A DNA stretch of 64,000 nt from Loxodes magnus. Taxonomy: Eukaryota; Ciliophora; Karyorelictea; Loxodida; Loxodidae. The position numbers were made by a program, and so were the translations under genes. This document shows positions 178-63,705 of the stretch, piece after piece (positions within the stretch are counted from its first letter, which is position 1; each line of letters opens with the position of its first letter). The stretch is from positions 248,001 to 312,000 of the forward strand of contig CAMPDV010000318.1 of the NCBI GenBank assembly GCA_946699065.1, written 5' to 3'. Below the pieces are notes generated by a model, which was given only the letters and a program-made list of their open reading frames with translations, was not told the origin of the DNA and did not search any database.

Positions 178-189
178 TCAATCTTAAGA

Positions 190-1027
190 CAAAAAAATTG
201 AGAAGAACATTCGTCTTTCTAAGATATAACAAAGAAAAACAAGAAAAAAGTGACGAACGAGGAGCTAAAAAAGCAAAGACAGTATAGAGAATCTAGCTCG
301 TCTTCAGAGGGAAAATTAATGGTTGATCCGAATGAACAATAAAACCCTGAAACCAAAAATAACAATTTACTCCAAAGCGAAATCGAAAAAATGAAAGCAA
401 AAATTGCAAAATATGAAGAGATATTTTTTAATCAAGGAGAAAAAATCCAGGAGCTAATGAATTACATAGAAGACTAAAATAACGAACTGCTAATTCTCAA
501 AAGTTAACTGATTAAAAACTCAGTAGTAACAGAAAATTAACTTTATGAAATGTCGTAAACTAACTTCAATTAATCACAAAGAATGATCATAGAAGAAGAT
601 TAGCACAAAACACAACATTAAGAAAAATAAAATTAAGAAAAAAATGATATAAACACAAACAAAAGAATTGAGATGCTGGAGAAAAAAGTTTTTAAAAATA
701 GAAATTAGAAAAACGATATAAAAATTGTTTGGTACTGCTAATCTTGGTATCATTTACTAAGACATTGTAAGAAATGAAGATAACTCAAGTACAATGAAGA
801 ATAAAGGACCTGAAGAAACTTAAACAAATTTTGGATAACTGAGTATGCATATATAAATAGAAACTATGAACAAGAAACTAAGAGAATCCTTCGTGGTAGC
901 TGTCCACTTTAAAAAAAGGTCGTGGAGAACAACCACGGAAAAAAACTTGTCAGCAGAAACCTGGTTGAAAACCCAGGATATGCAAACTTTAATTTTACAT
1001 TTAGTTAAAATAATAATAATAATAAAC
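190..1027 (+). mobile_element. ORF1-only (half-LINE) element with target-site duplication
   Basis: The element is flanked by a 12-nt direct repeat, TCAATCTTAAGA, at 178-189 and 1028-1039, as expected of a target-site duplication. It holds one ORF1-like gene (319 onward), then a 5-bp stem CCTGG/CCAGG at 960-977, a short conserved 3' sequence containing ATGCAAACTTTAATTTTA, and an (AAT)n tail near 1009-1025. The same 3' arrangement closes the element at 4310-5150. No endonuclease or reverse transcriptase lies between the gene and the tail, so it would be mobilised in trans. The unoccupied version of the site is seen at about 25245. Confidence 0.7.
319..972 (+). CDS. ORF1-like coiled-coil, zinc-knuckle protein
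   Basis: Read with TAA/TAG = Gln and TGA = Trp, the frame opens at ATG 319 and is sensible into the 3' tail. Coding-like sequence with a KKVTNEELKK-type stretch also lies upstream of this ATG, so the true start may be earlier. Residues about 20-110 are charged and heptad-like (EIEKMKAKIAKYEE), consistent with a coiled coil. A degenerate CCHC knuckle, VWYCQSWYHLLRHC, follows near 735-775; its first Cys is replaced. Family members are at 4310, 32493, 37206 and, reversed, 1813 and 45575. LINE ORF1 proteins bind element RNA; that role is inferred here. Confidence 0.6.
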
Positions 1028-1039
1028 TCAATCTTAAGA

Positions 1040-1828
1040 TAAGATAATATAATAGATTATCTTGACTTCAACATTATTAGTTTTGTCACAAATCAAATTT
1101 TTGTTAAGTTTAATAAAATTCACCTTTTTCTTTAAATTTGTTCCGATCTTCGTTATCATGTCTCTTGCCAAATATGAATCTTTTCTTTCTCAGTATCTCT
1201 TCTGTGTCGAATCCTAACCAACTTCTGTTGAAATTACTTACAGACACTTGATTTAAGGAAGTATTTTAAGTGATTTACAATCATTTTTTCTGAATATTCT
1301 GCCATCTTGCGTGCATCAAAATTTTTTTTAATTATACCATTATTTTTGGCTCTGGTATTCTTATTTTTTTTAATACTACCAAAAGTCTCTTATCTTGTGT
1401 CCCATTTTTTTACAGTATCAGCATGCTATTTTTCTTTTCCTGATATTAAATTACTATGGTATTTTTGCTTCTATGTCCATCGGATCGTTTCCTTGATTTT
1501 GCATGAACTAAGAAATTCATTTTTCACAAATTTGTTGATTATATTATCGAAAAATCTCTAATTTTGCTTCGGTCGCTTAAACTCTCTAATTAATTTGTTC
1601 AGTCGAAGGAATAAAGTTAAGTTGCTATTTGATCTCATGGCTATTGATGTGAATTCCAGTGATGCTTTCCTATAGGACTATTATATTTCTCTGTAGCTCT
1701 TGAAACGAATATTATAGCTTTTGGCTCTCACTTAAGAGAAATTCCAGATCGATTAAGTAATCATTTTGAGCTTTACTTGGCTAGATAGGTGATGATTACT
1801 TTTTCATTACCATTTTTTATATAATAAA
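1040..1828 (-). mobile_element. Second ORF1-only insertion, reverse strand
   Basis: This block lies between the 3' target-site copy of the 190-1027 element and the resumption of LINE-C sequence at about 1829. Comparison with the uninterrupted copy at 25245-25290 shows that it is extra DNA. Its gene runs on the minus strand. Exact ends and a target-site duplication are not clear by eye because both borders are AT-rich (AGATAA / ATAATAAA). Confidence 0.5.
1100..1813 (-). CDS. ORF1-like zinc-knuckle protein (reverse strand)
   Basis: ATG is at 1813 (minus). About 200 codons read as a charged, helical N-terminal part (DLEFLLSESQKLQYSFQEL) and a basic stretch, then a CCHC-type knuckle ACWYCKKMGHKIRDF in which the last Cys is Phe. 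TGA encodes the Trp inside the knuckle. A motif CTQDGRIFRK follows and recurs as VDKDGRIFRR in the element at 4310-5150. The 3' part is readable in two frames, so one frame change or decay is likely. It belongs to the same ORF1 family as 319-972 and lies in the opposite orientation. Confidence 0.6.
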
Positions 1829-3730: not shown

Positions 3731-4309
3731 TATCTAATTAAAAGGTAAGAACATAAATAATTTCTTTAAACTTAAGAAAATATTTAGCTATATTAGCCTA
3801 TTTGATTAACTCTTACTTTATAAGTTATTGAGAAAATACTTTTGAGTAAAGAAAAGTGACTTGAATTCTATAACTAATCAATTAAATATAATAATTAATT
3901 CTATAAATCCATTATAATGATAGTATTGAAGAAATACTAGCTAATAAGGAAAATTTACAAAAGTTAAAATAAAGTTTAAAACTATAAGCTGATAACTTAG
4001 TAAATATATTATAAATTATTAATAAAATGCATAATATTTAAATCCTTTAAGTTATCTAAATTAGTCTTTATTAGTAACTAAAACCAATCAAATCATATAC
4101 TAAATACGCTATTTATTACCATAATTCATATATATAAATGAAACAGATCATAATAGTAAATAGTATAATATATAGCCATATAAAAAATTAAAATACTAGT
4201 TTTACTATAATATAGTGATTAATATTTTACTCCAATATAATTCAATTAATATCAAAATATTATTCATAATTCATTTACATTTGCCTATCAAATCCATTTT
4301 TCAAATAAA
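3731..4309. other. AT-rich stretch, no recognised gene
   Basis: Very AT-rich sequence between the LINE-C remnant and the ORF1-only element. One plus-strand frame reads as a weakly coding-like, helical segment (EEILANKENLQKLKQSLK, about 3925-3985), which might be more LINE linker. Nothing else is recognisable. Confidence 0.4.
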
Positions 4310-5150
4310 ATGGCAGAAGGTCTCAAGAAGGGTTTTTTTCCAGCTTCATTGAAAAAGGAAAGAAAACCAGAGACTTCTAATTGTTTTTCTACCATGTCTT
4401 CTTTAATAACATAATAATTTTCTTAGGCTCTTTAACCCCCAAATTTAGAAAAATAAAGATAATCTTAAATTGAATAGGAAACTAAGTCAACGGAAACTGA
4501 CTAAAGCAAGCGAGACTTTTTACTCCCCATAGCCACAATCAAGTAACTACATGAAAAGTGGTAACTAAAAAATAATGTAGAAATAGAAAAATGATGAATA
4601 GTTAATAATAGAATAACTTATGAAGTCTATCCGTAACCTATAAAAAGAAGTTTAAATATTAAAGAAAGAAAACCAAAAATTATTTTAGAAAAGTTAAAAC
4701 AATGAAGAAAGATTAATGAAGCAGGAAATCGAAGTGAAACTTTTGGGATAAAAAAGAATTTAACCTTAAACCTTAGCTGAAAATAAATTGGAACTAGAAT
4801 ACACAAAATCCATAGAGATAACTCTTCCCAGAAGGATCGCCAAGCTGTGCTACCTGTGCAATTCAAGATTCCATACATATAAGAGATGCAAGATATATTT
4901 GGACAAACAGAGAAGAAACAGCAAAGAGATTTGGAGAGAACTGTCAAGAATTTATGTAGACAAGGATGGAAGAATATTTAGAAGGATGCTTTTTCAAGGG
5001 AGGGCCAAAACTCCAAAAAATTGGAAGTCCCGAACTTTTATTTTAAACCTCAAGGAACGAATTCTGGGGGTATGTATTGAAGGGTTTTAAAATCCCCCGG
5101 AGATACAAACACTTTAATTTAGTATATTATTATTATTATTATAAAATGTA
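4310..5150 (+). mobile_element. ORF1-only element with zinc-knuckle gene and (ATT)n tail
   Basis: ATG at 4310 opens a reading with a charged N-terminal half. After one or two frame changes around 4700-4780 it leads into an intact CCHC knuckle, LCYLCNSRFHTYKRC (4843-4887), and the family motif VDKDGRIFRR. Then come a 7-bp stem CTGGGGG (5064-5070) / CCCCCGG (5094-5100), the conserved 3' sequence with ACAAACACTTTAATTTA, and an (ATT)n tail to about 5150. The layout is the same as 190-1027: ORF1 gene directly followed by the 3' end, with no endonuclease or RT. The next repeat begins within a few bases of the tail. Confidence 0.65.
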
Positions 5151-5154
5151 TAAA

Positions 5155-5557
5155 ATGGATATCGGCCGCGTCAACCAAACTAGTAGGTAATCTGGTGCAG
5201 TGTATACTGCATTGCGAGTAATATCAAACTAGATGCCACCACGGGGAAGGGTGAATAAGCTTCGTTGAGACATGCTTAACTTACCCGAGGGTTCTCTCAA
5301 GCAGAATGAAAATTTGATTGACGGGCCTTCTAATTACCGACTTAATAACTATCTCTTATTTGGACCTTATTCAAGAAGACTGAAGTATTTGACTCAAGAT
5401 TTTAGAATAATTTTTAATAAGAAGATTCCCCATTTGAAGAAGCTGACGTGACTCATCGGACCTCTAGAATTTTAACAAGAAACATGAGAGCATTTCCTTA
5501 ATATTAAATATTAATATTGAAAGAGCTGTGCGCCAATGAAGTGCTACGCGCTCTATA
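5155..5557 (+). repeat. SINE-like repeat, copy S1
   Basis: Shares with 11010-11388 and 30817-31345 a start at ATGGAT, a head containing GTAGGTAATCTGG, and a later block GAGGGTTCTCT about 100 nt downstream. The spacing recalls Pol III A and B boxes, though neither matches the consensus fully. Just after the head is a perfect 6-bp hairpin, TGCAGT-GTAT-ACTGCA. It ends in a 33-nt motif (5522-5554) with AGAGC and GCTCT at its edges and CCAATGAAGTGCTACGC inside, which recurs at 26771, 31895 and 63640. No coding potential is evident. Confidence 0.65.
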
Positions 5558-6339
5558 ATAATTTTTTTTATTAAAAATAGTAGATGTTATAATCTTAATT
5601 TAAACTTACTTAGTCTATTCTTAAAGCTATTCTTAGGAGTTTAAGTTGATATTAATATCTTAATTTATATCCTAATTTTTTTTGTTTCGAGATAAAATAT
5701 TTTCATTTAAAAATTCAAAAAAATCATTGAAATAGAAAAAATAATATCTGTTTCTAAATAAAATCAAACCAAAAATCCTCAGATACTAAAATATAAAAGA
5801 AGGAAATAAATTAATCATGTTATAAAAATAAATAAAAAATTGACCATTCATAAACATAATCAGTACAATAACTAAAGTGCCTAAAATATATTTAATTTAA
5901 TTATTTTAAATATTCTTATATCTAATAAATAAATGAAATATTGCAAAATATTGCTATTTATTTTTAGTTATCTTTATTTATTTTTATATTTTTTCCAATA
6001 ATTAATTTTATGCTAATATTGTATCATTAACATTAAAAAATTAAATAATTTAGAAAATAAGCATTATAATTAAATTTAGTCTAAATTTTTGCTTATTGTA
6101 TTTAAATAAAACTTTAAAAAGAATAGTAATTAAAATATATTATAATAAAAGCTTTTAATAAATAAATGATACATACTGTAATTAATATGCTATTGATAAT
6201 TTATATTTTATTTTTATTTTCTTATATATTTATAGTTTTGCTATATTTTAATATTTATTTTCTATATACAAATTTTACTGCTACAATTATTTTTTTATTT
6301 TAAAATATAAGTACTTTATACATGCTATGCACAAAAAAA
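5558..6339. other. AT-rich spacer
   Basis: Low-complexity A/T sequence with no recognisable gene, RNA or repeat on either strand. Confidence 0.5.
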
Positions 6340-14600: not shown

Positions 14601-17587
14601 GCTCTTTTATAAGGCTTCGGTGATAATCCTGAAAATGCTTATGATAATAACATTAGACTATAAGAATTCTTACTATAAAACGATCTTGAGATAGTGAATG
14701 ATAGCAACATTAATACATGTATTCACAAAGGAACAGGAAAAACGTATTGTAATGATTATATCATTATAAACAACCATTTGAACGTTAATTAGTTTGCAAA
14801 TTTCACTGCTCATAATAATAGTTTATTTTCTGATCATATTCCAATCACTGTCGACTTTATCAATAATTCTATAGTATATTGGGAAAAGATAACTCAGAGA
14901 AAATATAAAATAAATAGGTTATAAGATGCAATAGATAGATAAAAATATTAAGAATCTTTCCTACAAACTTATCTAGAATTCTTTTAAATAGATTAAGATA
15001 ATCTTGAAGATTAATATGAATGCATCAAAAGTAATATTTAAGACAATGCTGATCAAACATTAGGTTCGTTTATTCCAGATTCAAATTATAACAAACTTCC
15101 TCGAGCTCTCACAAAGAAATATATAGAGGCAAAAAGAACTAACTCAGAATATAAGGAAGCTCACGTAAGATTTGGAAGAATAAACTAGCAAGTAACTAAT
15201 CTTCATGAGGAAGCAAAACGACTTTGGAAAGACTTCAAGTATAATCTATGAAAATTAAAAAAAAATAAAGCAAAAAAGAAATTTCTACTTCTTAATGGAG
15301 ATTCTAGGGAAATTTTTTCACAGGCTAAGAAAATTCTAAATCCTTTGAAGAGAAATACTATGAACTTTAATTAAGAAATCAAAAATAAATTCATTGAATC
15401 ATGGGAAAATTGTGTTTTTAACAAGCATTATAATCTAACTCAAGAATAGATAAATCTTAGTAATTAAAAAATAGATAAAATATACGATAATATTTAAGAA
15501 ATTAAAGATTATCCACTCTCGTATTTGTAAGGATTTGATCTTTTTACCATAAAAGAAATATAAGAAATTATAAAAGAAATTCCGAATGGAAAAGCAGCTG
15601 GTCCAGATGGAATAAAAGGCGAACTTCTGAAATATGGTGGATAATATTTATTAATAATTCTTAATTCTTTTCTGAATAATATGCTAAGACTTGGAAGAAT
15701 CCCTTAGGAATTAAATATATCGGTGATAATTCCAATATTTAAAAAAGGAAATAAAGATGATTGGAAAAACTGACGACCTATTTCTCTTATTAATACTATT
15801 CTAAAACTATATGATAAAGCTTCAACAAAAAGACTATACAATCTGATTTATTAGAGAAATTTGATTCACCCTTCATAAATGGGATTTATGAAAAACAGAT
15901 AAACAACTTAATAAATTTGAATAATATAATAAATAATTGATAACTATCGGAAATGTGCTAAAGGTAAGACAAAATTGATAGCAACACTGATAGACGTTGA
16001 AAAAATGTTTGACTCAATAGAAAGAAGACTCCTGTTTGATTAACTTAAGAGAGTTAAACTACCACTTGGAATAATAATAGCTTTAGAATCGTTTTATAAA
16101 AACCTAAATTCTTCATTTATCATAGATGGTAAGAGCACCAGAACTTTATAGTTCAACAATGGAGTTATGTAAGGAAGTTCTCATGGACCAGTTTTAGCAT
16201 TATTGTATTATGACATAGTAATTAGATATCTGGAAAGTAAAAGTAACTAATTGGGATTTAAATGCCAGGATTCAAGTATTAGCTTCGCTTGTAGAGGATG
16301 GGCAGATGATCTTATTCTTCTTTCCAAATCTGCAAAGTAGATGTAGAATTTAATAAATGAAGCAAATAAAGTTTTTGCATGAACACATTTAAAGATTAAT
16401 GTTACCAAATCCGAATGCATCTAATTTCTAAAGAAGAATCAGAAATAATAAATTTTAAATTTATGATTAGGAAATTAACCAATTGCTTAAAAAGAACAAG
16501 TAGCATATTTAGGAGTTATTCTACATTAGAAGAAGAACTTAAATCCCCATTGCAAAGAAACTGCATTCAAGTATATAGCTGCAATGAAGAAAGCTGTTTT
16601 TTAACTGATGAGATATAAGAATGTAACTCCTTGACATTTTAAAACTTTATGTAGACTTTTTACATTACCTAAAGCAGAATATGGAGGAGACTTAGTACCA
16701 TGAAGTATTCAAAAAGGAGTAACTGGAGTTCTGAACAGAATAGAATCAAGCATGAGATTAATTTCAAGAAAAGCTTTTTAAGTAGCAACTTCAACATTTA
16801 ATGAATCATGTTATATAGACCTGAATTGATTACCCTTTAAGCACATTATGGCTATAAAATTCTTCAGATTCTACCATAAAATTAAATAAGAAAGTACTGA
16901 TTTTCCAAGATCAACAATAGGCTCTCTTTTCATTAATATATGGAAAAAAGGATTTCAATACTACGATTAAGTGTAGCAATTATCAGACCTTTATAATATC
17001 GATCTGCAGAATTAATAGAATAATACCAATCTTAAAACTTTTACTAAACATGTAAGAGAAAAAATACAACAATATTTCTACAAAGTAGTAATAAAAAATT
17101 TATGAGGATGAAAACAGCTAAAGTATATACTGAATAATTTGGTAATCTTTAACAATTTCCACAAATTACTTATACTAAATTAAACAAATAGTATAGACGA
17201 GAAATTATCAGTATATATAAACTTAGAACCTAAACTTATAATTTCCGTAAGGATCTTTAAGATCGTCATTATCCCATTGATAATCCCTATTGTATGTGTG
17301 GAGAGTATGAAACTTTCGAGCATATCTTTAAATGTGTGTACTATTCTAATATAATGAATTGATTATCGGAAAATATCGGAAATTATGACTTAAGGCGCCT
17401 TATACTATACGATCAAGAATATCTAAACTCATTTTCAAGGTCTAAATTGGAGTATTTAGACTTATAGATCAAAATATTTCATAAGAAGCTAATGACAAGG
17501 AGACTTGAGATTCTAGAAATGGAGAAAGCAAAAAAGGAAGAAGCTAAAGATGAATAGAAAGAAGAACTAATTAAAGAAAAATGATGA
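11670..17587 (+). CDS. LINE-A polyprotein: ORF1-like, APE endonuclease, RT, CCHC
   Basis: One frame from ATG 11670 runs to about 17090 and then shifts by one base near an A-run; it ends at tandem TGA TGA (17582-17587), about 1,970 codons. Residues 1-700 are Gln/Asn-rich and coiled-coil-like, followed by a basic patch KRKHEEEDKTIPPAKR. From residue 843 an APE endonuclease shows NINGIAS, LSINETW, SCYMPD, MGDFNA, YCNDYI and SDHIPI. The RT spans about 1305-1650: NGKAAGPDG, NWRPISL, LIDVEKMFDSI, NNGVMQGSSHGP and the catalytic box WADD (16299-16310) where most LINEs have Y/FADD. Near the C-terminus is a CMCGEYETFEHIFKC finger. In-frame TGA gives Trp at conserved sites. It would copy its RNA into nicked target DNA. 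Confidence 0.9.
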
Positions 17588-23313: not shown

Positions 23314-24709
23314 ATGTAAGCGTTACCAAAATGCTTAATCTGCTTAGAAGATTACAACTTAACTAATGCTCTTCCAACTGTCTTACCTTGTGGACATATT
23401 TACTGTGGTTTGTGTTTGAATACTCAGTACTGATTATAAGGCATAATGTAATGTCCTATTTGTTAAAAAGGATTCCATTTTAGATTTGATGATTTACCTT
23501 AAGAAAGTGATTTAATAAGAGTGATATTTTAAAACTAATAATACATATAAAAGATTTAAGATGCTAGATAGAAATTAAAAGAGATAAGGAGGTAAATTAT
23601 GGAAAAATCTAAAACCATTACAACCAAATAATCAAACATTAGTAATACTCTCATAATACCACTAACTAATATCATCATCAATCATTAACCAACATTTATC
23701 TACCAAAAATAACACTCAAATATTATCTAATTCTACTAATCACTAAAACCAACTATACTCTAATATAACTCATAACCACCTACAATACTAAACTCTAAAT
23801 TAACTTACAATCTAATAAGATAAAAACTATAATACAATACTAAGTAACCAAATAAGATTTAGACTAATTAACATAAACTAAGCTACCACTTTATATAATC
23901 TAACTATATTCACTTTTTGATTGAGACAATTTAAAAATTAAGTTTATTTAATATTTAAACAGAGTAATTACGATAAGTCTAAGTTTAAATTATAATTCCA
24001 GGTTTTAGTAATAGTATAGAATATTAAAATAAGTTATATTTAATTGGAGGATATAACAGAAATTAAAAGAAAGCAATAAAAGAAACTTGATAATTTGATT
24101 ATGAAGGTAATAGTATAAAACTTAGTGATCTAAATGAGGGAAGAGGTTACTTTGGAATAGCAGCTGCTTAAAAATAACTTTATGTGGTTGGAGGAATTAC
24201 TAATAATAATCAAGTTTTATAATCAGTAGAAAAGTTAAAGATAGAAAACTAAAGTAAATGATAAAACTGTACTTAGTTTCCAATTTAGAATAGGTTGTTA
24301 AACTTTAGTAGTAGATAAAGATGAATAAAATATTTATTCTTTTGGAGGCGGAAATTAGAAAGAATAAAGTTTAAAAGATATATGAAAGTATAACATATAG
24401 AATGATAGATGAAGTAAGTAAAATTTTAGTCTTCCTGAAGCTGTTGCTTAACCTATAGTTTGTTTAGAGCCTTTTGTCATATTTGGAGGTATGAAAAATT
24501 ATTCTAGTGAAGAGTATTCAAGAAAAATATATAAAAGAAACAAAGAATAATGGCAATAAAGCTAAATTTTTAAAGATGTTGCAGCTTTAACGGAGATGAA
24601 AATAAGAAATAACTATGGATATGTTTTTGCAGTAGAAGAGCCAAGAGTTTCAATAATGAGGATTGATTTAGAAAAATTGAGTTATAGAAGTATTAGAAGT
24701 AATAACTGA
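23314..24709 (+). CDS. RING finger-kelch repeat protein
   Basis: ATG 23314 opens a RING finger at residues 7-60 with spacing C-X2-C-X15-C-X-H-X2-C-X2-C-X12-C-X2-C (KCLICLEDY, LPCGHIYCGLC, CPICQK). This fold typically marks E3 ubiquitin ligases. A helical segment follows (IQKIQDARQKLKEIRRQ), then an odd G-free linker (23603-23925), then kelch-type blades: YLIGGYNR, LYVVGGITNN, YSFGGGNQKE, FVIFGGMKNY. The frame moves by one base between about 24230 and 24300. GT...AG stretches of 25, 31 and 43 nt would each fix it, as would a one-base indel; I cannot choose. The end is TGA 24707-24709. Trp is encoded by TGA in QYWLQG and ETWQFD. Likely a substrate-recruiting ligase; the substrate is unknown. 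Confidence 0.75.
23603..23925 (+). other. G-depleted island inside the RING-kelch gene
   Basis: About 320 nt contain roughly seven G but about 67 C on the plus strand. The frame stays open but gives a Thr/Asn/Ile/Pro-rich string unlike the rest of the protein. It may be an intron or inserted sequence rather than linker. Similar blocks occur at 1-177, 18225-18480, 24870-25200, 30030-30230 and 63706-64000. Confidence 0.6.
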
Positions 24710-25070
24710 TAAACATAATAATAATATCTATATTATTTATAATATTTATAATTTAGTTTTATATGTAAAGAAGTAGTTTAAAGATCTTAATTAGGTAAAT
24801 ATGTTACTACTTATTAAAGAGGTTAATCTACTAAATACTTTAATAAGAAGATATAAATAAAGAATCAAATTTTATCTAAAAATCTTTAAAAATCTATTAT
24901 TCAAATATTATCCTTATTCAGATACAAACATACAGCTTATAGCATACCAAAACATATTCAACATAGTCAAAAAAACTATATTTAAATACATCTGTGTTTT
25001 CAAATTATACAAGTACTATTTAGATTAGTATTTATCTAATCTAATAAAAACTATAATCAAATGATCATTA
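24710..25070. other. AT-rich spacer
   Basis: Downstream of the RING-kelch stop. The second half is G-poor and C-rich like the block in that gene. No gene seen. Confidence 0.45.
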
Positions 25071-25330
25071 AGCTATATCTATATCTATATACTAATTAGG
25101 TAATCACTACTATCATTAAGTCAGCATTTTCAAGTCTAAAATACATTATTTCCTTTAATCATTTAAACTAGCTATTAAATATACTTAAAAATGCTCCATA
25201 GACAATAATAAAATGAAGCCATTATAACCCCTATACTGTCGATAAAATTCAATCATAATAACTTTTCAAGATTAATATGATAAATCAGTAAGATTAAAAC
25301 AGCATCCAAATAAAGTTTTTAGAAGGTATT
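25071..25330 (+). repeat. LINE-C-type 5' end, uninterrupted copy
   Basis: Matches 1-177 and then, without a gap, 1829-1890 (TTCAAGATTAATATGATAAA against TTCGAGATTAATATGATAAA). It therefore shows the site before the two ORF1-only insertions at 190-1828. It is followed at 25335 by LINE-A-like sequence, not by LINE-C coding sequence. Confidence 0.65.
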
Positions 25331-26819
25331 TCTTATTCATCAAAAGTAACATTTAAGACAATGCAGATTAAACGTTAGGATCGTTTATTCCAAACTCAAA
25401 TTATAACAAGCTTCTTCGAGATTTTACTAAGAAATATAGAAGGCTAAAAAGCTAGCTCAGCATATAAGGAAGTTCACATTAAATTTGGAAGAACAAATTT
25501 ACAAGTAACTAATCTTCATGTGACAGTAAAAAGACTTTGGAAAGACTTCAAGTATAATCTGTGAAAATTAAAAAAAATAAAGCAAAAAAGAAATGTTTAC
25601 TTCTAAATGGAGATGGTAAGGAAATATTTTCATATGCTAAGAAAATTCTAAATCCTAAAAAAGGAAATTAAATGAATTTTAATTAAGAGATAAAAAATAA
25701 ATTCATTGATTCATGGAAAATTGTGCTTTTAACAAGCTTTCTAATCTTACTCAATGATAGATAAATTTTCGTACTTAAAAACTAGATAAAATATACGCTA
25801 GTATTCAAGAAAATAAAGATTATCCACTCTCATATTTATAAGGATTTGATCTTTTTACCATACAAGAAATGCAAGAAATTATATAAGAATCTCCGAATGG
25901 AAAAGCAGCTGATCCAGACGGAATCAAAGGTGAAGGTTTGTAATATGGTGGATAATATTTGTAAATAATTCTTCATTTTTTTCTGAATAATATGTATAAA
26001 CTTGGAAGAATCACTTAGGAATTTAATACATCGGTGATAATTCCAATATTTATAAAAGTAAATAAAGATGATTGGAAAAACTGAAGATCTATTTCTCTTA
26101 TTAATACTATTCAAAAACTATATGATAAAGCTTTAACAAAAAGACTATACAATATGATTTATTAGAGAAATTTAATTCAGCCTTCATAAAAGGGATTTAT
26201 AAAAAATAGATAAACAACTTAATAAATTTGAATAATATAATAAATAATTGATAACTATTGGAAATATGCTAAAGGTATGACTAAATTGATAGCAACACTG
26301 ATAGATGTTGAAAAAATGTTTGATTCAATAGAAAGAAGACCTTTGTTTGATTAATTTAAGAGAGTTAAACTACCACAAGGAATAATAATAGCCTTAGAAT
26401 CCTTTTACAAAAACCTAAATTCTTCATTTATCATAGATGGAAAGAGCACCGAATACAACAATGGAGTTATACAAGGAAGTTCGCATGGGCCAGTTTTAGC
26501 ATTGTTGTATTATGACATAGTAATTAGATATTTAGAAAGCAAAAGTACCTATCTGAAATTCAAATGCCAGGGTTCAAGTATTTTTCGCTTGCAGAGGATG
26601 TGCAGATGATCCGATTCTTCTTTCAAAATCTGCAAAGTAGACGTAGGAGTTAACAAATAAAGCAAGTAATATTTTTGAATAAACTCACTTAAGGATGAGT
26701 GTTACCAAATCGGGATGAATCAAAATTTTAAAGAAACGTTAGAAATAAATAAATAAATAAATTTGATTATAGAGCGCGTAGTACTCTCATTGGTGCGTAG
26801 CTCTTTAAAAAAAATGTTT

Positions 26820-26942
26820 CATACTGACAAGAATGTTTGCTACTGATAAAATTATCAGATACTGATAAACCTTGTTCAATACTGGTATAATTATTCAGTA
26901 CTGATAAAAATGTTCAATACTGATATAATTTTAGAATACTCG
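26820..26942. repeat. Minisatellite, 19-21 bp unit
   Basis: About six imperfect units built on AATACTGATAAAAATGTTC (variants ATACTGACAAG, CTACTGATAAAATT, GTACTGATAAAAATG). It lies directly upstream (plus sense) of the 149-bp duplication and within S4. Confidence 0.75.
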
Positions 26943-32049: not shown

Positions 32050-33440
32050 TTAAAACGAGCATAGGTAGGTGCTCGATTCTATTCAAAAAAAAGAATTGAA
32101 ACTACTAAAATTAGAATAAGTAAACTAAGTTTAGAATCTACTAAGACAACTATTAAAAAATTATAGTTAATAGCCATTTAAATAAATTCTTCAGGCTTCC
32201 ACTTAAATAACTAAGTCAGGTATTAAAACGTGGACATTAGTTGTAACACACTTTAAGAGATGTGCTTACAGAAAAAAAAATAGTCGTGTAGACTTCAATG
32301 AAAATATCCAAAATATCTTAAATATCTTCTGATAAATAGCATATCTTTGAAAATAATTATGATAATAAACATATTTATAATACATTTTTCTAGTATTTAA
32401 ATGAAGAAACTAAGCTAAATTTAACCCTAACAAATCAATGTTAAAAAAATGAAATGAAGCTTTAAAAGGGATTTTATATCACCTCCTCGTAGTATGAGAG
32501 GAAATCGGAATCTACTTCTCGACAGTTGTCTTCTCAATAACCCTAACCTTTTTCTTAATAACCTTAATAATCAGGAAAATAAGCCAACTATGAGGAACGA
32601 AAGTAAGTCCAGAAAATAACACATGTGGAAACACCTATGTCGGAAGAAAAACCTAGTAAGCAGTTAAGCAGCTGAAATCTGCTCTACATCAGGAAGATTC
32701 TGAATTTAATCTTTCTGGCCAGATTTGTATGGAGTAGCTCATCAAAGTGGTACTAAACCTCCAGGAAGAGGTAAAAAAGCTAAGGAAGGAGAACCAAAAG
32801 CTAACTGAACAAATCTAGCATGGACTGTAAGATACCCAAAACCTCATGACGACAAACTAAGAGAGGGAACTTAACGTTCTTTGGAATTGCTAGGAAAAAT
32901 TCAGTTAGACGAACTTCTAAGTGCAGAGGATTCAAAATTAAAATCAGCGGATCGAAAACAAATTACAAAGTCTGAGAAACCTCAAAAAAAACCAGCAGAA
33001 TCCATTGCAATAGAATCTAAATTCCGATAAGATGGAGATAGAAAATACCTCTAATTTGGAAATGCAACAAGTATCCAAGGTGTGAAAACTGTGTTATTAT
33101 TGCAAGAACTAAGGGCACCTATGAAGATAATGTGAAACTTTAAAGAAAATTAAGGAGAAATCTTGGAAGAGACAAGCCCAACTATCAATAAGGAGAAAGA
33201 AAAACTAAATCTGATGTAGAGAAAATGGGGAAGTTTATTCTATAAAATTGAATCTCGAACCTGAAAAACTTGGAGTAGGAACAAGAATTAAATAAGGTGG
33301 GAAAAAAAAGACAAGTTAAGCAAGATTCAAAATTTTTATGACTAGATTCAAGCAAAAAAATTATAACTTTAAAACTTCTTTTAAGAGAGGACTTTGATTG
33401 TCACTACCAAACAATTTAATTTTATAAATAAATAAGCAAA
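32050..33440 (+). mobile_element. ORF1-only element with intact CCHC knuckle
   Basis: The first 220 nt (32050-32270) match the start of the LINE-A frame (RQLLKN and flanking sequence), so its N-terminus is LINE-A-like. From 32493 a Ser/Gln-rich segment reads clearly (RQLSSQQPQPFSQQPQQS). After a frame change near 32665 it continues as a coiled coil (LNLQEEVKKLRKENQKLTEQ) and an intact knuckle, LCYYCKNQGHLWRQC (33089-33130), whose Trp is TGA and Gln TAA. The family region with RENGEVY follows. The 3' end shows CCAAACAATTTAATTTTA and an (AAAT)n tail, as in the other ORF1-only elements. No endonuclease or RT is present. Confidence 0.65.
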
Positions 33441-33683
33441 TCAACGTTCTAAAGATAAATAATCTTAATTTCCTAATAGTTAGGAAATATGTAATAATAA
33501 GATTTATTTATAAACATATCACAAAATTAACTGAACTTTATGTTTTGGAGTTAAAGATAAATAATAAATATAAAAAATTTTACCTTAAATATTAAGCAAT
33601 TAAATTCGATCTGAAGCATTGACAAAACAAGAAAAAGTCAATAATATAAAATAGCAAATTTACTTAAACAGCTCTCATCTGCC

Positions 33684-35559: not shown

Positions 35560-37160
35560 AACCTTTAAAGCTCTACTACAAGATATTAAAGTAGAGTCCC
35601 TATTTCTATAGCAATAATAATAATTAATATATATTTACTAAATTTTCATTTAGGTAATAAGTAAGTTTAGTATAATTCCTGATAAATTATCTTTCTCCAT
35701 ATCTGCTTTATCTTCCTCTTGATTATCATTGTAGCTTTCATAGCTTCCTTTTTCCATTATTTCTTATAAAAATTCTTTATTTTGTTAAATAGTTAAATTT
35801 CTTCTTCGAAGTAGTTCTTTATGGAAGCATTTTATTATAAAATCTATTTGTTTACCTATTTTCGGGTAGAGAAATTTTGATTAAAGTATCTTTAATTATA
35901 AGTCATAATTTGAGTAAATCATTAGTTTTTGGAATCTTTAAATTCTTCATTTAAATCTTTAGAGATTCACATTGTTCAATATGCTCGAAATTATCCAATT
36001 CTCCACAATTGCAAAATCCTGAATGCTTTATTTTATAATGTCTTTTCTTCAAATCATATTAAAAATAGTAACAGAAAGTTCTTAATTTTTATATTGAAAT
36101 TATTTCTCTTGCTTTGTCTTATTGAGTTTTGTATATGTATAATAAAGAAACTTTTCTGCATCCTTTTTAATTTCTCCAAAATAAAGGCTTGTTGTAGGTC
36201 TATCACTAATCTGTTTCACTGCATCTTGGTAGAATTTCTTTTAAATTAAAGTTTTAGAATCTTTGCTTTCATAAGTATTTTCTAAATTTGCTTAAAAGTA
36301 TTTGAGTAACTTCTACAGATTTTTAAAATAGTCTAAGTTATCACTCTTAGATCTATTAAAAAGAAAAGCAATATCCGAATCAGGTTGTAATTGAGTTTCT
36401 TATTTTATTTTGATATATAATTTTTGTATTTAATTGCAATGAAGTATTCAAATGGTAATCAATTTAGATCTTCGAAGCAAGATTCATTAGATATCTAGTT
36501 CGGACTTTGTAAGATCTATCTTGCTACTTTTCTTTAGCTTGTTTGAATATTATTTTTAATTCCTCGATGATAGCTCAAGAAATTACTTCTGAACCATATT
36601 CTACTTTTGGAAGAATAAATAATCGAAGAATATGCTTATAATTTGATGGTGCTCAATTTTTATATTTAGGTAGTTATAAAATAGCGCTATATATATTCTA
36701 TACTTTTGATAGATTTCATTTCAGTGAGATTTATAGTATTCATATTCATCAAATTTGTATCCCTAGTATGTTATATTATTATATTTTTAACCTATAGCTA
36801 TTCAAAGTAATCTTCAAGTTAGAATCATTTTAAATTTTATTTTTCTTTAAAAAGCAGATGTTTTCGGACTTTTCTACAGTGAAGATAATTTTGCTCGACT
36901 ATGAGTTTTACAAGTTGCTTAAATAAATGATTTCATGTTTATTTCATCTGAAATTAGAATTAAATCGTCCACCATAGCTATTGAAGTATAAGTTAGACCC
37001 CAATTTTAAAACCGTACTTTTTTGATAAGTTTCAATATTCTTATAACGATAACATAGAAGATAATAGCAAGAACTGATCCTTGTGAACTCTCTTATAAAA
37101 CTCCATTATTATATTAAAAAAATGGTTTCTAAGAAATAACAGAACTTTGAACAAAACATT
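35560..37160 (-). mobile_element. LINE-D, reverse strand, 5' truncated (RT to 3' end)
   Basis: Minus strand from about 37160: RT motif B (YNNGVLQESSQGSVLAI), motif C with MVDD instead of ADD, then LPKVEYGSEVISW (LPKAEYGGDLVPW in LINE-A), NESCFEDLNWLPF (NESCYIDLNWLPF) and the C-terminal finger CNCGELDNFEHIEQC. The Trp in LNWLP is TGA in both elements. The 3' end has a stem CTCTACT/AGTAGAG near 35563-35590 and a short (ATT)n run. Two or three frame changes occur. Same lineage as LINE-A but clearly diverged. Confidence 0.75.
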
Positions 37161-37205
37161 TAAACAGGAAAATTCTCTCAAAAATAAAAAAACGAAATAA
37201 TTACA

Positions 37206-38285
37206 ATGAGTGAAAGTGAGAAATATGATTGATATGACGAACATTAGCCACTTGGAAATCCAGAATTTAAAAAAATTCTGACACAAACTCAAATAGAAAT
37301 ATTATCTAAGTCATTAAAAGAGTTTATGTTTAAAAATAGATACCTCACTGATAAAGTAGAAAAATTAATAAAGACTTTGCTTGAGAAACAATATTAATCA
37401 TCATAAGAAATAGAAAGCAAACTGGAACAAAGAATTCTTTAAATTTAATAATAAATTAATGTAACGCCATTTTCGTTTTAACAGAATTAATCAAATCCTA
37501 TGGAAATAGAAAATGAAGCCTCAAATTAAAATAAACAGTAAATGTTTATTTAAAATAAGTAGTAAATTTAAATTAAATAAGTGTTACAGGAATAATAGTT
37601 TAAAAGAAGAATAAAATGCTACGTGTGCAATAAATAACACCAATGAAAATACTGCTACTAACTAAGCGAAATTTAAAGAAAGAATAAATAAGATATTTGT
37701 AGAAAACTATTTAGGATATATCCAACATAAAGTGGAAAAATTAAAAAAAAATCTTTAATTCAAATCTTAATCCTTGGATAAATAATTAGGAACGCTAAGT
37801 GCAAGACCAAAACTATTCTGAATATTAAAGGATGGTGCACTAATGAAGTGCTACACCGCCTAACTAAGCCTAGTAGGAATTCAAGACAAACTAATAGAAC
37901 AGCTGATAGAAAAGGTCAGATGGCTGACTACTAAGGTTTTAACAAAGCTTTTTAACTTTAACTTTTAAGAAACAAAAAGCCTAATTAAAGGAAATTCAAA
38001 ATTAAACCCTAATCAGCTAAATCAAAGAATTACATAACATAGAAAGTTGATCGGGAAAAAAATAAGTTTGGAAGGCTCAATTAAAAAAGACAATATTTAA
38101 TAAATCTTCAGGAAGCAATCATCAATTTCTCTTTCATAAAACAAAAGTAGAAAATAAAGGAACTGTTATAAAGGTAAGAGAACGCGAAATTACTCTTTTA
38201 AAATAAAGATAGCGTCAATAACTCAGAAAAGATAAGTAGAAGTTTTATAAATATCATTTCACATTTCTCAATCATTAAAGAGTGA
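37206..38285 (+). CDS. Uninterrupted ORF1-like zinc-knuckle protein
   Basis: ATG 37206 to TGA 38283-38285, 359 codons without a frame change. The N-terminal part is acidic then helical (KSLKEFMFKNRYLTDKVEKL), followed by a Gln-rich stretch. A knuckle CYVCNKQHQWKYC (37617-37655) has the spacing CX2CX3HX4C, one residue shorter than its relatives; its Trp is TGA and one Gln is TAA. After it the family pattern CRKLFRIYPTQSGKIKK is visible. The C-terminal half is very basic. Part of the SINE terminal motif (GCACTAATGAAGTGCTAC) is embedded near 37832. It starts back to back with truncated LINE-D. No endonuclease or RT follows. Confidence 0.65.
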
Positions 38286-44689: not shown

Positions 44690-45580
44690 GTATGCAAATA
44701 CATACTTAAAAGTTTGGCGCTCTTCGAGATATTTCAACCTCTTTCCTGCCAGCCTCTATATTGCTCTAGAAGCTTAATATAAAAGTCTTAAAATCTCTAC
44801 AACTTTTCTACTTGCCATGCATGTTGTCCTTTAATTCTTCTTTCACATAGATGCTACATATCTTTTACTTGTAAATTTCCCCGAATTTGTTACAGTATAA
44901 TCTTTCTCTTTCTCTTGATAGCTTTATTTGTTATTGTTTCTTCCTTTTGTTCTCCGGCTAATTCTAATAGCTTCAATATTCTTATTTGAAATTGAGAAAT
45001 TTCTAGCATCTTTTCCACAGATGCTTTTGAGAGTTATAATAGTAACATCTTTTCGATTGTTGTTTAGGTTTAAATCTTGAGTTATTTTTCTCTTCAATTA
45101 TCATCGGATCATTCCTTTATTCTTCCAATTCCATTTAAAGTTGCAATTTGTACTGATTTTCTTCAATTTTTTCTAATTTGCTGATCAGTTCTTTCTGCTT
45201 CCATTGCTAATTTTGAGATTAACTGCTCTAGTCTTGCAATATATTTCAAAATGCTTTAGGTCTCTTTTTTAGGTAATGAGTCTCGATTCTATTTCCTCTG
45301 CAAGTTAAGTTTTTCCATTAACTTCTTATTGTCTTTCTTCAACTTTTTGACCTCTTCTTGGAGGTCTAGTACCACTTTAATCAGCTAATCATAGCTTATT
45401 TACTAAAATGTGGTGAGACTCGAGACTTCCGAGTGCATAATATTCTTAGTCTATTTCCTAGGCTTTTCTTCAGAGATGGGAGACTTATCCTGATATTTAA
45501 CCTTTTTGTTACCCTTTTCTTGATCCTAGCCTTTCTAGAATGTTGTTAACTCCTACTTTTAATAGCCTTTTTAAAAATTC
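44690..45580 (-). pseudogene. ORF1-like zinc-knuckle gene, reverse strand
   Basis: Minus-strand reading begins near 45575 with a Lys/Ser-rich segment, then a clear coiled coil (VLDLQEEVKKLKKDNKKL), then EAERTDQQI and LEEQRNDPMIIEE. A knuckle follows near 45055-45010, CYYYNSQKHLWKRC, with the second Cys changed to Tyr. The post-knuckle family region includes CNKFGEIYKQ. One frame change lies inside the coiled coil. The stretch EAERT...MELREQRNIPMIIEE at 60910-61030 is a sister copy. Closest to the element at 32050-33440. Confidence 0.6.
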
Positions 45581-50195: not shown

Positions 50196-51796
50196 TTTAT
50201 TCTAGAACAAGCAAGTTATACAATCTCTCAATATTTGGCTTTTTAATTCTGATATATAAGCAAACCACGTTTTAAATCTAGAGATTTTATTTAATTTTGG
50301 AGCATTAGTAAAAGTTAAAGCTAATAGGTAGAAAATAAAATATAACTGGTATTTAAAAATGTATATGAGAATTAAAAAAGTCCAGGTTTTAAACAGTAGA
50401 GCAAATAGCTAATAAGACTTTAGAAAAGAAAAGCATTAGCAAAGTTAGCACCTTAATTAGATAAAGAGATGTGAAGATTGAGTATATAAGACTTAATTTA
50501 AAGCTTTGCTTTCTATACAGTCTAACAATATACATATCATTGTATATCAATCAAAGCTATTTATTATTGTAATAGTATAAGCTTAGAATGGGATTATATG
50601 TTAACTAGATAAAATTGCTATAGTTCAGAAAGATTCTTTAGAATTGGAGTTATAAAGTAAGTAATATGGGCAATATCTAATAATAATGTCTTAATAAGCA
50701 TAATAGGATAACACATTTGAACTACAAGTGATAACTAAATTTGGTATACTTAGTTAAAATAAGTGAAGTCTTTTATGCATAAGTTTTAAAATAAAAAGCT
50801 AAAGATTTTGTTTCTAAATAGATCTAATAAGGGTACAAAGAAAAATTGGCTAGTTAATAATTGCTTATATGAGTTGAGATAAATAGTTTATTATATGAAC
50901 TAAAACTTAAATAAGTAACTAACAAAGATTGAAATAAGTGAGATATTCATAGACTCTTCTAAAAAGCATAGGAGAACTAAAACTATAAGACAAAATTCTT
51001 AATTCAGCTTTAAGTAAAATACCTATAATAGTCGTGTAAAATCTATTTCAATCAATTGCAGAACAAATTTAAAATCAATTGGACTATGAAAAAATCTAGA
51101 AGATTTAATTTGGACGTAAAGCTTTTTACATTTCTTGATAAATATTGATTCTAAAATCAAAGAGGAAAGAAAAAGTTTAAAATAATCGTGTAGTAAGCCT
51201 AAACTTTTTTAAAGGGAGATATTAAATAACAAGTCTTATTTAAGTATAGCACTCATTTTTTTAATACCTAATATCATTAAAAAAGTCTAATTTCTATAAT
51301 TTAATAACTTGATAAGTAAGTATAATACTCATATCAAGTTATCATATAACAACAGATAGATAAAAGTTTGAATTACTTTTTGATTGTTAAGTTTATCTGC
51401 TCTTTTAAATTATTAGCTTAACTTCCCTAAAATTCCATAGCATAACAATATATGAGAAACCATCTAGTATAGATCCCCTTTAAACAGCTTGTAATAATAT
51501 AGAATGCTTAATTACATTTAGATTAAGTCTAATTTAATTAAGATGTGTCATATAACAAAGGGTTGTAATACCTACTTATAGCAAGGAATGTATAATAGCA
51601 GATTCTATTATTAGCAGAGGTTTCTTTTTATCCAAGCTATATTTATAATAAACTTTAATGAAAGCAGATATTTAAACTCTTTATTGAACCCCTTGAGTTT
51701 AATAACATACTCTTCATAGTTGAGAGCCACTATTCTTTTCCCTTAGTTCAGTTGAACTTTTTATTCTCCAAATTACTTTAAAACTTATAATAAAAT
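50196..51796. other. AT-rich region; upstream extension of the reverse membrane gene, then spacer
   Basis: To about 50780 the minus strand probably continues the membrane protein gene. From there to the tRNA nothing is recognisable. Confidence 0.4.
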
Positions 51797-51868
51797 TCCA
51801 CATCCGGGACTCGAACCCGGGTCTTTCGGGTGAAAGCCGAATATCCTAACCTGCTAGACTAATGTGGA
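51797..51868 (-). tRNA. tRNA-Glu (UUC)
   Basis: A 72-nt cloverleaf on the minus strand. The acceptor stem TCCACAT/ATGTGGA is perfect (7 bp), the T arm is CCGGG-TTCGAGT-CCCGG, and the anticodon arm is TTCGG-CTTTCAC-CCGAA with anticodon UUC. The internal A box (TAGTCTAGCAGG) and B box (GGTTCGAGTCC) fit Pol III promoters, and a TTTT run follows the 3' end. No intron; CCA is not encoded. It reads GAA/GAG as Glu and is not one of the Gln or Trp tRNAs needed for the reassigned stops. Confidence 0.97.
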
Positions 51869-52150
51869 TTTATAATTACTATATTAGCAAGCTTAAATAC
51901 TTACTCATAGCGACTCTAGAAGATAAGTAAAAATTAAATGAGATCTAAAGCTATTTTATGTTATCGATTTATAATCCCTTGACTAGTTTCTTTTAACTAA
52001 ACCTTGAATCTTTTCAATAGTTATAGTTAATTATTAAGACTCTAAGTTATATAAACACCTTAAAATAAGATTTATAGTTAGAACATTTATTCAAATGAAA
52101 TCACTTAGTAAAGTTATCCAATTACATACTCTAAATTCTCTAAAACTCTG

Positions 52151-63380: not shown

Positions 63381-63636
63381 GGAAATTATCCTTGAAGATC
63401 TGGTATCAGGAAGTACCCATTGGCGAAGAACCGAACAAGAATCTTGGTAAGAGTCGAGAGAGAAGACAAAGACTAAAGCGGCATCGTGAAATGTTATTGA
63501 AGAAAGATACAAGATACTAAGGTCTCTTAGAATGCATTCCGATCACTCTCTTTAGAAGTCAAGATTCATTTAAAGGATGCTATAATTGTGGAAGACTTCA
63601 AAAATAAATTTTTTTTACTTTAAAAATCTTTATTAA

Positions 63637-63705
63637 AGAGCTGCGCGCCATTGAGGTGCTACTTACTCTCTAATCTTATTTATTTATTCATTATTTATCT
63701 CTTAA
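63637..63705 (+). repeat. SINE terminal motif and (TTTA)n tail (S6)
   Basis: AAAGAGCTGCGCGCCATTGAGGTGCTAC matches the S1 terminal motif with few changes and is followed by TTATTTATTTATT. The body upstream is not recognisable as S1-S3 head; a possible fragment CTATAATTGTGG just before it may be the remains of an ORF1 knuckle. Confidence 0.55.

Follow-up and report, generated by a model that had tools for sequence, protein, structure and literature searches.

ORF1-only elements are best known in mammals (HAL1) and Drosophila (HeT-A), and SINEs can share a 3' end with a partner LINE, as in the shared-tail model. HAL1 (half-L1) is presented, in the available portions of two papers, as a non-autonomous element that encodes only the ORF1 protein, has neither endonuclease (EN) nor reverse transcriptase (RT), and is thought to be moved by a LINE (PMC5753468, PMC4161310). 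The same portion of the first paper describes it as an L1 derivative that arose several times (PMC5753468). HeT-A of Drosophila encodes Gag and no RT, the RT being supplied from elsewhere, according to the accessible part of its description (PMC5537684). LINEs and MITEs have been described in the ciliate Blepharisma, in a paper whose available text contains 'ORF1' 0 times (PMC9942856). For Loxodes magnus, the available part of the genome paper reports a macronuclear assembly of 706 Mbp with ~2,700 RVT_1 copies and a UGA-only stop code, and two LINE families, rnd-1_family-27 and -19, of 5-6 kb with RVT_1 and Exo_endo_phos_2 and ~3000 copies per family (PMC11441545). The same paper counts 504 repeats that overlap monoallelic indels. 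These LINEs share the genome with the elements described here, but they are autonomous. ORF1-only elements are unmentioned in that part of the paper, and 'non-autonomous' occurs 0 times in its main text (PMC11441545). In the open-licence literature, at the level of titles and the starts of abstracts, we found no report of ORF1-only retroelements in ciliates.

The genome of Loxodes magnus appears to hold thousands of short one-gene elements that lack a copying enzyme, borrow it from longer elements and keep their gene under selection. We analysed a window of 64,000 nt, i.e., positions 248001-312000 of contig C318, together with the whole genome of 705,730,643 bp. On the basis of their predicted proteins, five families (A, A2, B, C and D) and one decayed relative (F) are assigned to a single zinc-knuckle protein lineage. 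Like HAL1, the Loxodes elements have only an ORF1-type protein, without EN or RT, but this protein is unlike the two LINE ORF1s compared, and several families stand on one ORF lineage, with A-A2 synonymous divergence near saturation. Like HeT-A, they carry a Gag-type gene without RT. However, HeT-A adds to chromosome ends, whereas the Loxodes elements lie at internal AT-rich sites with target-site duplications (TSDs). The features of the window are collected in Table 1.

Table 1. Coordinates of the one-gene elements and their parts in the window.
Feature	Position	Strand	Description
5' TSD of A	178-189	.	TCAATCTTAAGA; exact 12-nt match to 1028-1039
Element A	190-1027	+	Decayed copy of a predicted ORF1-only retroelement; profile match 223-873
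3' tail hairpin of A	953-983	+	Lower stem GCA/TGC, upper stem CCTGG/CCAGG, 8-nt loop TTGAAAAC; fold z -2.9
3' TSD of A	1028-1039	.	Exact 12-nt copy of 178-189
Element F	1283-1813	-	Decayed relative with a B-like start, TATAAAAAATGG; knuckle CWYCKKMGHKIRDF without its last Cys; profile match 1283-1804
Element B	4303-5146	+	Older copy of a young 256-codon family, frame broken; ATG 4310; knuckle CYLCNSRFHTYKRC at 4848-4889; profile match 4428-5015
3' tail hairpin of B	5068-5108	+	L020-type tail fold z -1.9; alignment
5' TSD of C	32431-32442	.	12 nt, 1 mismatch to 33437-33448
Element C	32443-33436	+	ORF begins at ATG 32454, with later shifts of frame; knuckle CYYCKNQGHLWRQC at 33092-33133; profile match 32849-33250
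3' TSD of C	33437-33448	.	12 nt, 1 mismatch to 32431-32442
Element D	37108-37966 (ends approximate)	+	ORF from ATG 37122; knuckle CYVCNKQHQWKYC; profile match 37125-37763
LINE-like 3' hairpin in D	37827-37861	+	Homologous to the 3' hairpin of LINE L069/L071; single fold z -1.3
Element E	45160-45540	-	Degenerate C-related fragment; pieces of L023 and L032 match both; without profile match

For translation, TAA and TAG were read as Gln and TGA as Trp or stop. This is because a search of the genome for RVT_1 (3403 candidates, 150 of them scored) gave rows with in-frame TGA, TAG and TAA, and because the published code has UGA as its only stop. Genome-wide copy counts are matches to 31-mer markers, those of B for example with up to 3 mismatches, and the reversed-pattern controls of the marker counts are 0.

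The elements follow one plan. They are 0.8-1 kb long: ~10 nt precede an ORF of ~220-260 codons, which is followed by a structured 3' end with a short tail of simple sequence. The protein has a Gln-rich middle that looks coiled-coil-like by eye, a zinc knuckle and a conserved C-terminal segment similar to 'LxRIYxxxxGxIYRKKLF'. Among A, A2, B and D, 14 columns are invariant, including those of three Cys and the His of the knuckle. Perfect CX2CX4HX4C motifs are found only twice in the window, in B and C; the knuckle is mutated in window A and in F, and D has a CX2CX3HX4C variant. A profile built from the A2, B and D proteins, and run against the window and the LINE loci, also finds A, C and F in the window; its matches to B and D are expected, since it was built from those families. 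Among the related zinc-knuckle genes listed in the initial annotation, the profile thus retains A, B, C, D and F, but not the one at 45575 (-), which is a degenerate fragment. Two boundaries given there have moved: the gene placed at 37206 starts at its upstream ATG (Table 1), and the element placed at 32050-33440 is shortened by the TSDs of C, which set its first base at 32443. The absence of EN and RT, also claimed there, stands. Neither domain turns up when the proteins of B, A2 and D are scanned with Pfam, and A and C have no room for an ORF2 because they are 838 and 994 bp long. The best Pfam match of the one-gene element proteins has an E value of 0.057, none being below 0.05, and the best match in a PDB search has an E value of 0.43; both are taken as chance.

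Family B has gone through a recent burst. We fetched 30 loci out of the top 40 among 1335 candidates. Five of them (L009-L013) represent the block that holds the window copy, and the other 25 have their own flanks and occupy 23 sites, two pairs having common flanks. In this sample of 25 the 256-codon ORF is unbroken throughout (0/25 lost), and pairwise identity has a mean of 0.9961 and a minimum of 0.9889; the sample leans to intact copies, because the best-matching 25 of many were taken. TSDs, which had been claimed for a single copy, extend to other copies and families: they are present in 25/25 of these B copies (10-18 nt), in A (12 nt, exact), in A2 (15 nt, in L005) and in C (12 nt with 1 mismatch). 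By comparison, an exact common stretch of at least 10 nt is found in 11/400 random flank pairs from the window. These B copies lie inside contigs and are not chromosome-end additions. No convincing TSD is seen at the window B copy or its four block sisters. The B copies end in TTA or TAAA repeats. In 11/25 copies there is a T in GATACTAACAC, and those copies end in TTAAATAAA-type tails (one is too short to tell), a pairing that suggests more than one source lineage of B.

Both B and C have a fixed length. For B, unselected 31-mer counts reach 576 close to the 5' end, 611 towards the end of the ORF and 612 in the tail (reversed controls 0), which puts the family at ~610 copies. Thus, about 9 in 10 B copies seem to reach to within ~120 nt or less of the ATG, the counts being unpaired by locus. 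For C, 39 other copies (with the window copy, the best 40 of 3101 candidates, a sample that leans to long matches) are 79-84% identical over almost the full length; 35/39 align from the first base of the query and stop at 973-981 of 982, and the remaining 4/39 start at base 5 or 17 and stop at 976. The fixed length of B and its near-equal 5' and 3' marker counts therefore argue against LINEs with independent loss of RT. This alternative, in which the bulk of the copies would be LINEs stripped of EN and RT by separate deletions at varied points, had been named as the one that would overturn the idea of ORF1-only elements. It draws on a LINE 5' end that is homologous to B and C and on a hairpin common to a LINE and D, but we consider it very unlikely given the fixed length of B and C, the B counts of 576/611/612, the TSDs at the element ends in 25/25 near-identical B copies, the five tested tails that all proved to be B, and an ORF that matches LINE ORF1 at the knuckle only. 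The tails in question came from the 612 B tail matches, which were considered as possible LINE tails, a candidate that was set aside: five tails (401 nt each), picked by eye as having no exact ORF or 5' marker among the matches listed, are 5/5 old B copies, 91-96% identical to L020.

The copy first described, at 190-1027, keeps its TSD and its place in the lineage, but it is decayed and lies within a duplicated block. Its start codon and frame are lost; the frame ran from about position 197 into the 3' hairpin loop. In the duplicates L004, L005 and L007 the frame of 237 codons is open when in-frame TGA is read as Trp (3 TGA codons in the L007 copy), and a CX2CX4HX4C knuckle is present. Both flanks of window A are common to 8/8 fetched copies (the best 8 of 40 scored matches); these eight are therefore duplicated versions of a single insertion within a repeated block. 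Genome-wide, a marker 31-mer from within A matches 258 times, against ~34 matches with at most 2 mismatches for the junction between A and its flank in the window; a further 51 matches at exactly 3 mismatches were excluded, since the few of them that were compared by eye fell away from the listed A copies. Most A copies are therefore elsewhere, or in block copies that have diverged at the junction. Thus, copies away from the window junction may be separate insertions or block copies that have diverged, and on these genome-wide counts (258 vs ~34) we dropped the idea of A as merely a single insertion multiplied within a block. The even spacing of some A matches along one contig suggests that a block was duplicated there as well. 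Window parts 1-2530 and 23868-25258 adjoin each other in further copies of the A-bearing block (L001-L008), and the window therefore holds a large, rearranged duplicated unit. Separately, the window contains a long direct repeat pair, 15020-16469 and 25335-26769, which is 79-88% identical and ~10.3 kb apart. Overall, the finding of the initial annotation is real; it is stronger than could be known from the window for B and C, and weaker for the copy that was named.

Family A2 was met at two different sites, in the L005 and L024 flanks, and its marker has 682 matches genome-wide. It has an ORF of at least 237 codons with a perfect knuckle, and its nucleotide identity to A is 69% over the matched part and 60% over the ORF. 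Family D is also found in L027, L030 and L034/L035, and beside the LINE of L069. A 31-mer from its hairpin region has 2772 matches genome-wide, counted irrespective of the ORF. No convincing TSD was found for D in three copies and the window copy.

The ORF is under purifying selection between A and A2, in the coding frame only, in the one between-lineage pair that aligns reliably. In the comparison of A (L007) with A2 (L024), the coding frame gives pS 0.77, pN 0.31 and pN/pS 0.41, whereas the other two frames of the same letters give pN/pS of 1.13 and 1.09. Near-saturation of the synonymous sites leaves the point estimate of dN/dS undefined; among the bootstraps that yield a value, the 95% range is 0.09-0.32. 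Three D copies give dN/dS of 0.83-1.33 with bootstrap ranges of 0.32-4.45, compatible with neutrality after insertion. The comparisons of B with A2 (dN/dS 0.19) and of B with D (0.53) were set aside for their poor alignments. The results for A-A2 and for D show the pattern of an ORF that is selected during the copying of the lineage and free to decay once inserted. Long SINEs with an accidental open frame are thus a very improbable account. Though such elements would also be non-autonomous and short, and one family does carry a LINE 3' hairpin, selection acts here in one frame only (pN/pS 0.41 vs 1.13 and 1.09), none of the three Cys or the His of the knuckle varies among A, A2, B and D, and the frame is lost in 0/25 of the young B sample.

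The 3' ends of the families were said to be similar, and this is borne out: the tail of A resembles that of B, and the C end resembles both in sequence. The tails of A, A2 and B have a lower stem, a small internal loop, an upper stem of 4-5 bp and an 8-nt loop TTKAAAAY; their stem letters differ, and their fold z values are -2.9, -2.6 and -1.9. This common architecture is drawn from three separate folds, since the MAFFT alignment shifts the stem by one column. Reading the element ends by eye revealed no LTR or terminal inverted repeat. There is no Rfam or tRNA match (pol III head) inside the window copies, and Rfam shows nothing near cut-off for window 4900-5700. The sole match in the window is a tRNA-Glu (ttc) gene at 51796-51868 (-). 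The stretch 51778-51885 around it matches L072 9017-9121 at 93.5%, and it is therefore a multicopy tRNA gene or a tRNA-derived repeat. The tails also bear on whether a cellular zinc-knuckle mRNA was amplified by LINEs. We consider such a retrocopied host gene improbable: the short 3' UTR and single terminal UGA of B do fit Loxodes genes, as described in the available part of the genome paper (PMC11441545), but the tails are TTA/TAAA repeats behind a hairpin common to three families, not poly(A), and A and A2 have diverged with their ORF under selection.

Family D lacks the A/B tail, and its hairpin is that of LINE L069/L071. The hairpin has a TAC bulge and, in most cases, a 5-nt loop AAYGA (ATTGT in L071). 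It lies ~100 nt before the end of D, unlike its place in the LINE. Folded singly, the LINE hairpin has z -3.8, whereas that of D, at -1.3, is only slightly better than shuffles. In nine hairpin tails (LINE, D, SINE-like and one window piece), 90.7% of cells are paired, and the covariation score is 0.326 vs 0.204 shuffled (0/500); two other covariation measures on these tails fall within the shuffles (114/500 and 460/500). The LINE L069 type is ~5.5 kb long, a piece of its ORF2 has RVT_1 (3.6e-36) and Exo_endo_phos_2 (2.1e-11), and its tail has 3540 matches genome-wide; potential helper machinery is therefore abundant. Judged by the hairpin, the L069 group is the best candidate partner of D. 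As in SINEs with a LINE-derived 3' end, D and the tail at 5502-5572 share the hairpin with L069 as a possible partner, but the Loxodes elements differ from such SINEs in holding a selected protein gene. Window stretches 5502-5572, 26745-26824 (-) and 63629-63700 match the L069-type hairpin tail at ~80-90%; the first of these closes a stretch at ~5150-5572, possibly a SINE or truncated LINE. In contigs C5131 and C20, RT-bearing LINE pieces recur every ~2.5 kb, like a LINE fragment turned tandem satellite.

The 5' end of LINE L069 is also related to the one-gene elements. Its first 55-80 nt score 66 against C, where the maximum of 1000 mononucleotide shuffles is 33, and 57 against B, where the maximum is 42; against D there is no alignment, the score of 15 being reached by 673/1000 shuffles. 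This LINE-like 5' segment opens the ORF of the one-gene elements (KGFY/F...ERKPE-like), and in L069 the segment that codes for this N-terminus is in a different frame from the zinc-knuckle ORF1. In one reading, LINE L069 would have taken its 5' end from a one-gene element. The opening 150 nt of the LINE in L069 and L070 could represent a captured 5' end or conceal a short intron.

The full LINE with the tail of A and B, which the initial annotation had suggested looking for, did not appear: none with this tail or with the ORF of the one-gene elements was found in four LINE loci read over ~10 kb and 30 read at the RT and 3' part. The profile has no match to LINE ORF1 in the four LINE loci. In a profile-profile comparison with the ORF1s of L069 and L072, which are themselves ~28% identical, only the knuckle matches (24 columns, probability 3.3, E 0.013). 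The parallel with HAL1 thus holds in its logic, that of recently active elements with only an ORF1-like gene, and is supported only in part for a derivation from a LINE: L069 shares a 5' segment with B and C and a hairpin with D, but the match to the two ORF1s compared is the knuckle alone. The word 'half-LINE' claims an origin beyond the evidence.

In our view, the elements are very probably non-LTR retroelements of an ORF1-only (gag-only) kind, which work like HAL1 and HeT-A and would be moved in trans by LINE machinery. Observed are the TSDs (B, A, C, A2), the fixed length (B, C), the recent burst of B, the absence of EN and RT, and the selection on the ORF between A and A2. The element RNA would be translated, and the protein would bind the RNA that encoded it. 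A LINE endonuclease and RT would then recruit the 3' end of the element and insert it by target-primed reverse transcription, and slippage on the tail during priming would leave the simple-sequence tail. Purifying selection on the ORF of an element with borrowed enzymes implies a protein that mainly serves its own RNA (cis preference).

Two views of where the gene came from are each held tentatively. As a sub-case of trans mobilisation, a true HAL1-like origin is quite possible, if short of probable: the ORF would be the ORF1 of an unsampled LINE family that also bears the A/B tail. The zinc knuckle and coiled-coil-like layout, together with LINE-like TSDs and tails, are consistent with this, as is a small sample of LINEs, of which four were read at length and 150 of 3403 RT candidates scored. 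However, the ORF1s of L069 and L072 are of another type, and the four LINE loci gave the profile no ORF1 match. The other view, a credible one that we would not call likely, is a long-lived RT-less clade. Here, one gag-only lineage, whose protein does not come from a resident LINE ORF1, would have divided into five or more families, each with a 3' recognition structure of its own. The lineage would live as an obligate parasite of the LINE machinery, and it would be L069 that took its 5' end from such an element, not the other way round.

The presence in a ciliate of several families of these elements, one of them very young, with a selected ORF and a fixed length, would show that elements of this kind can be both long-lasting and varied. 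It would also provide a natural test of the need of LINEs for ORF1, since an element that borrows EN and RT still keeps an RNA-binding-type protein of its own.
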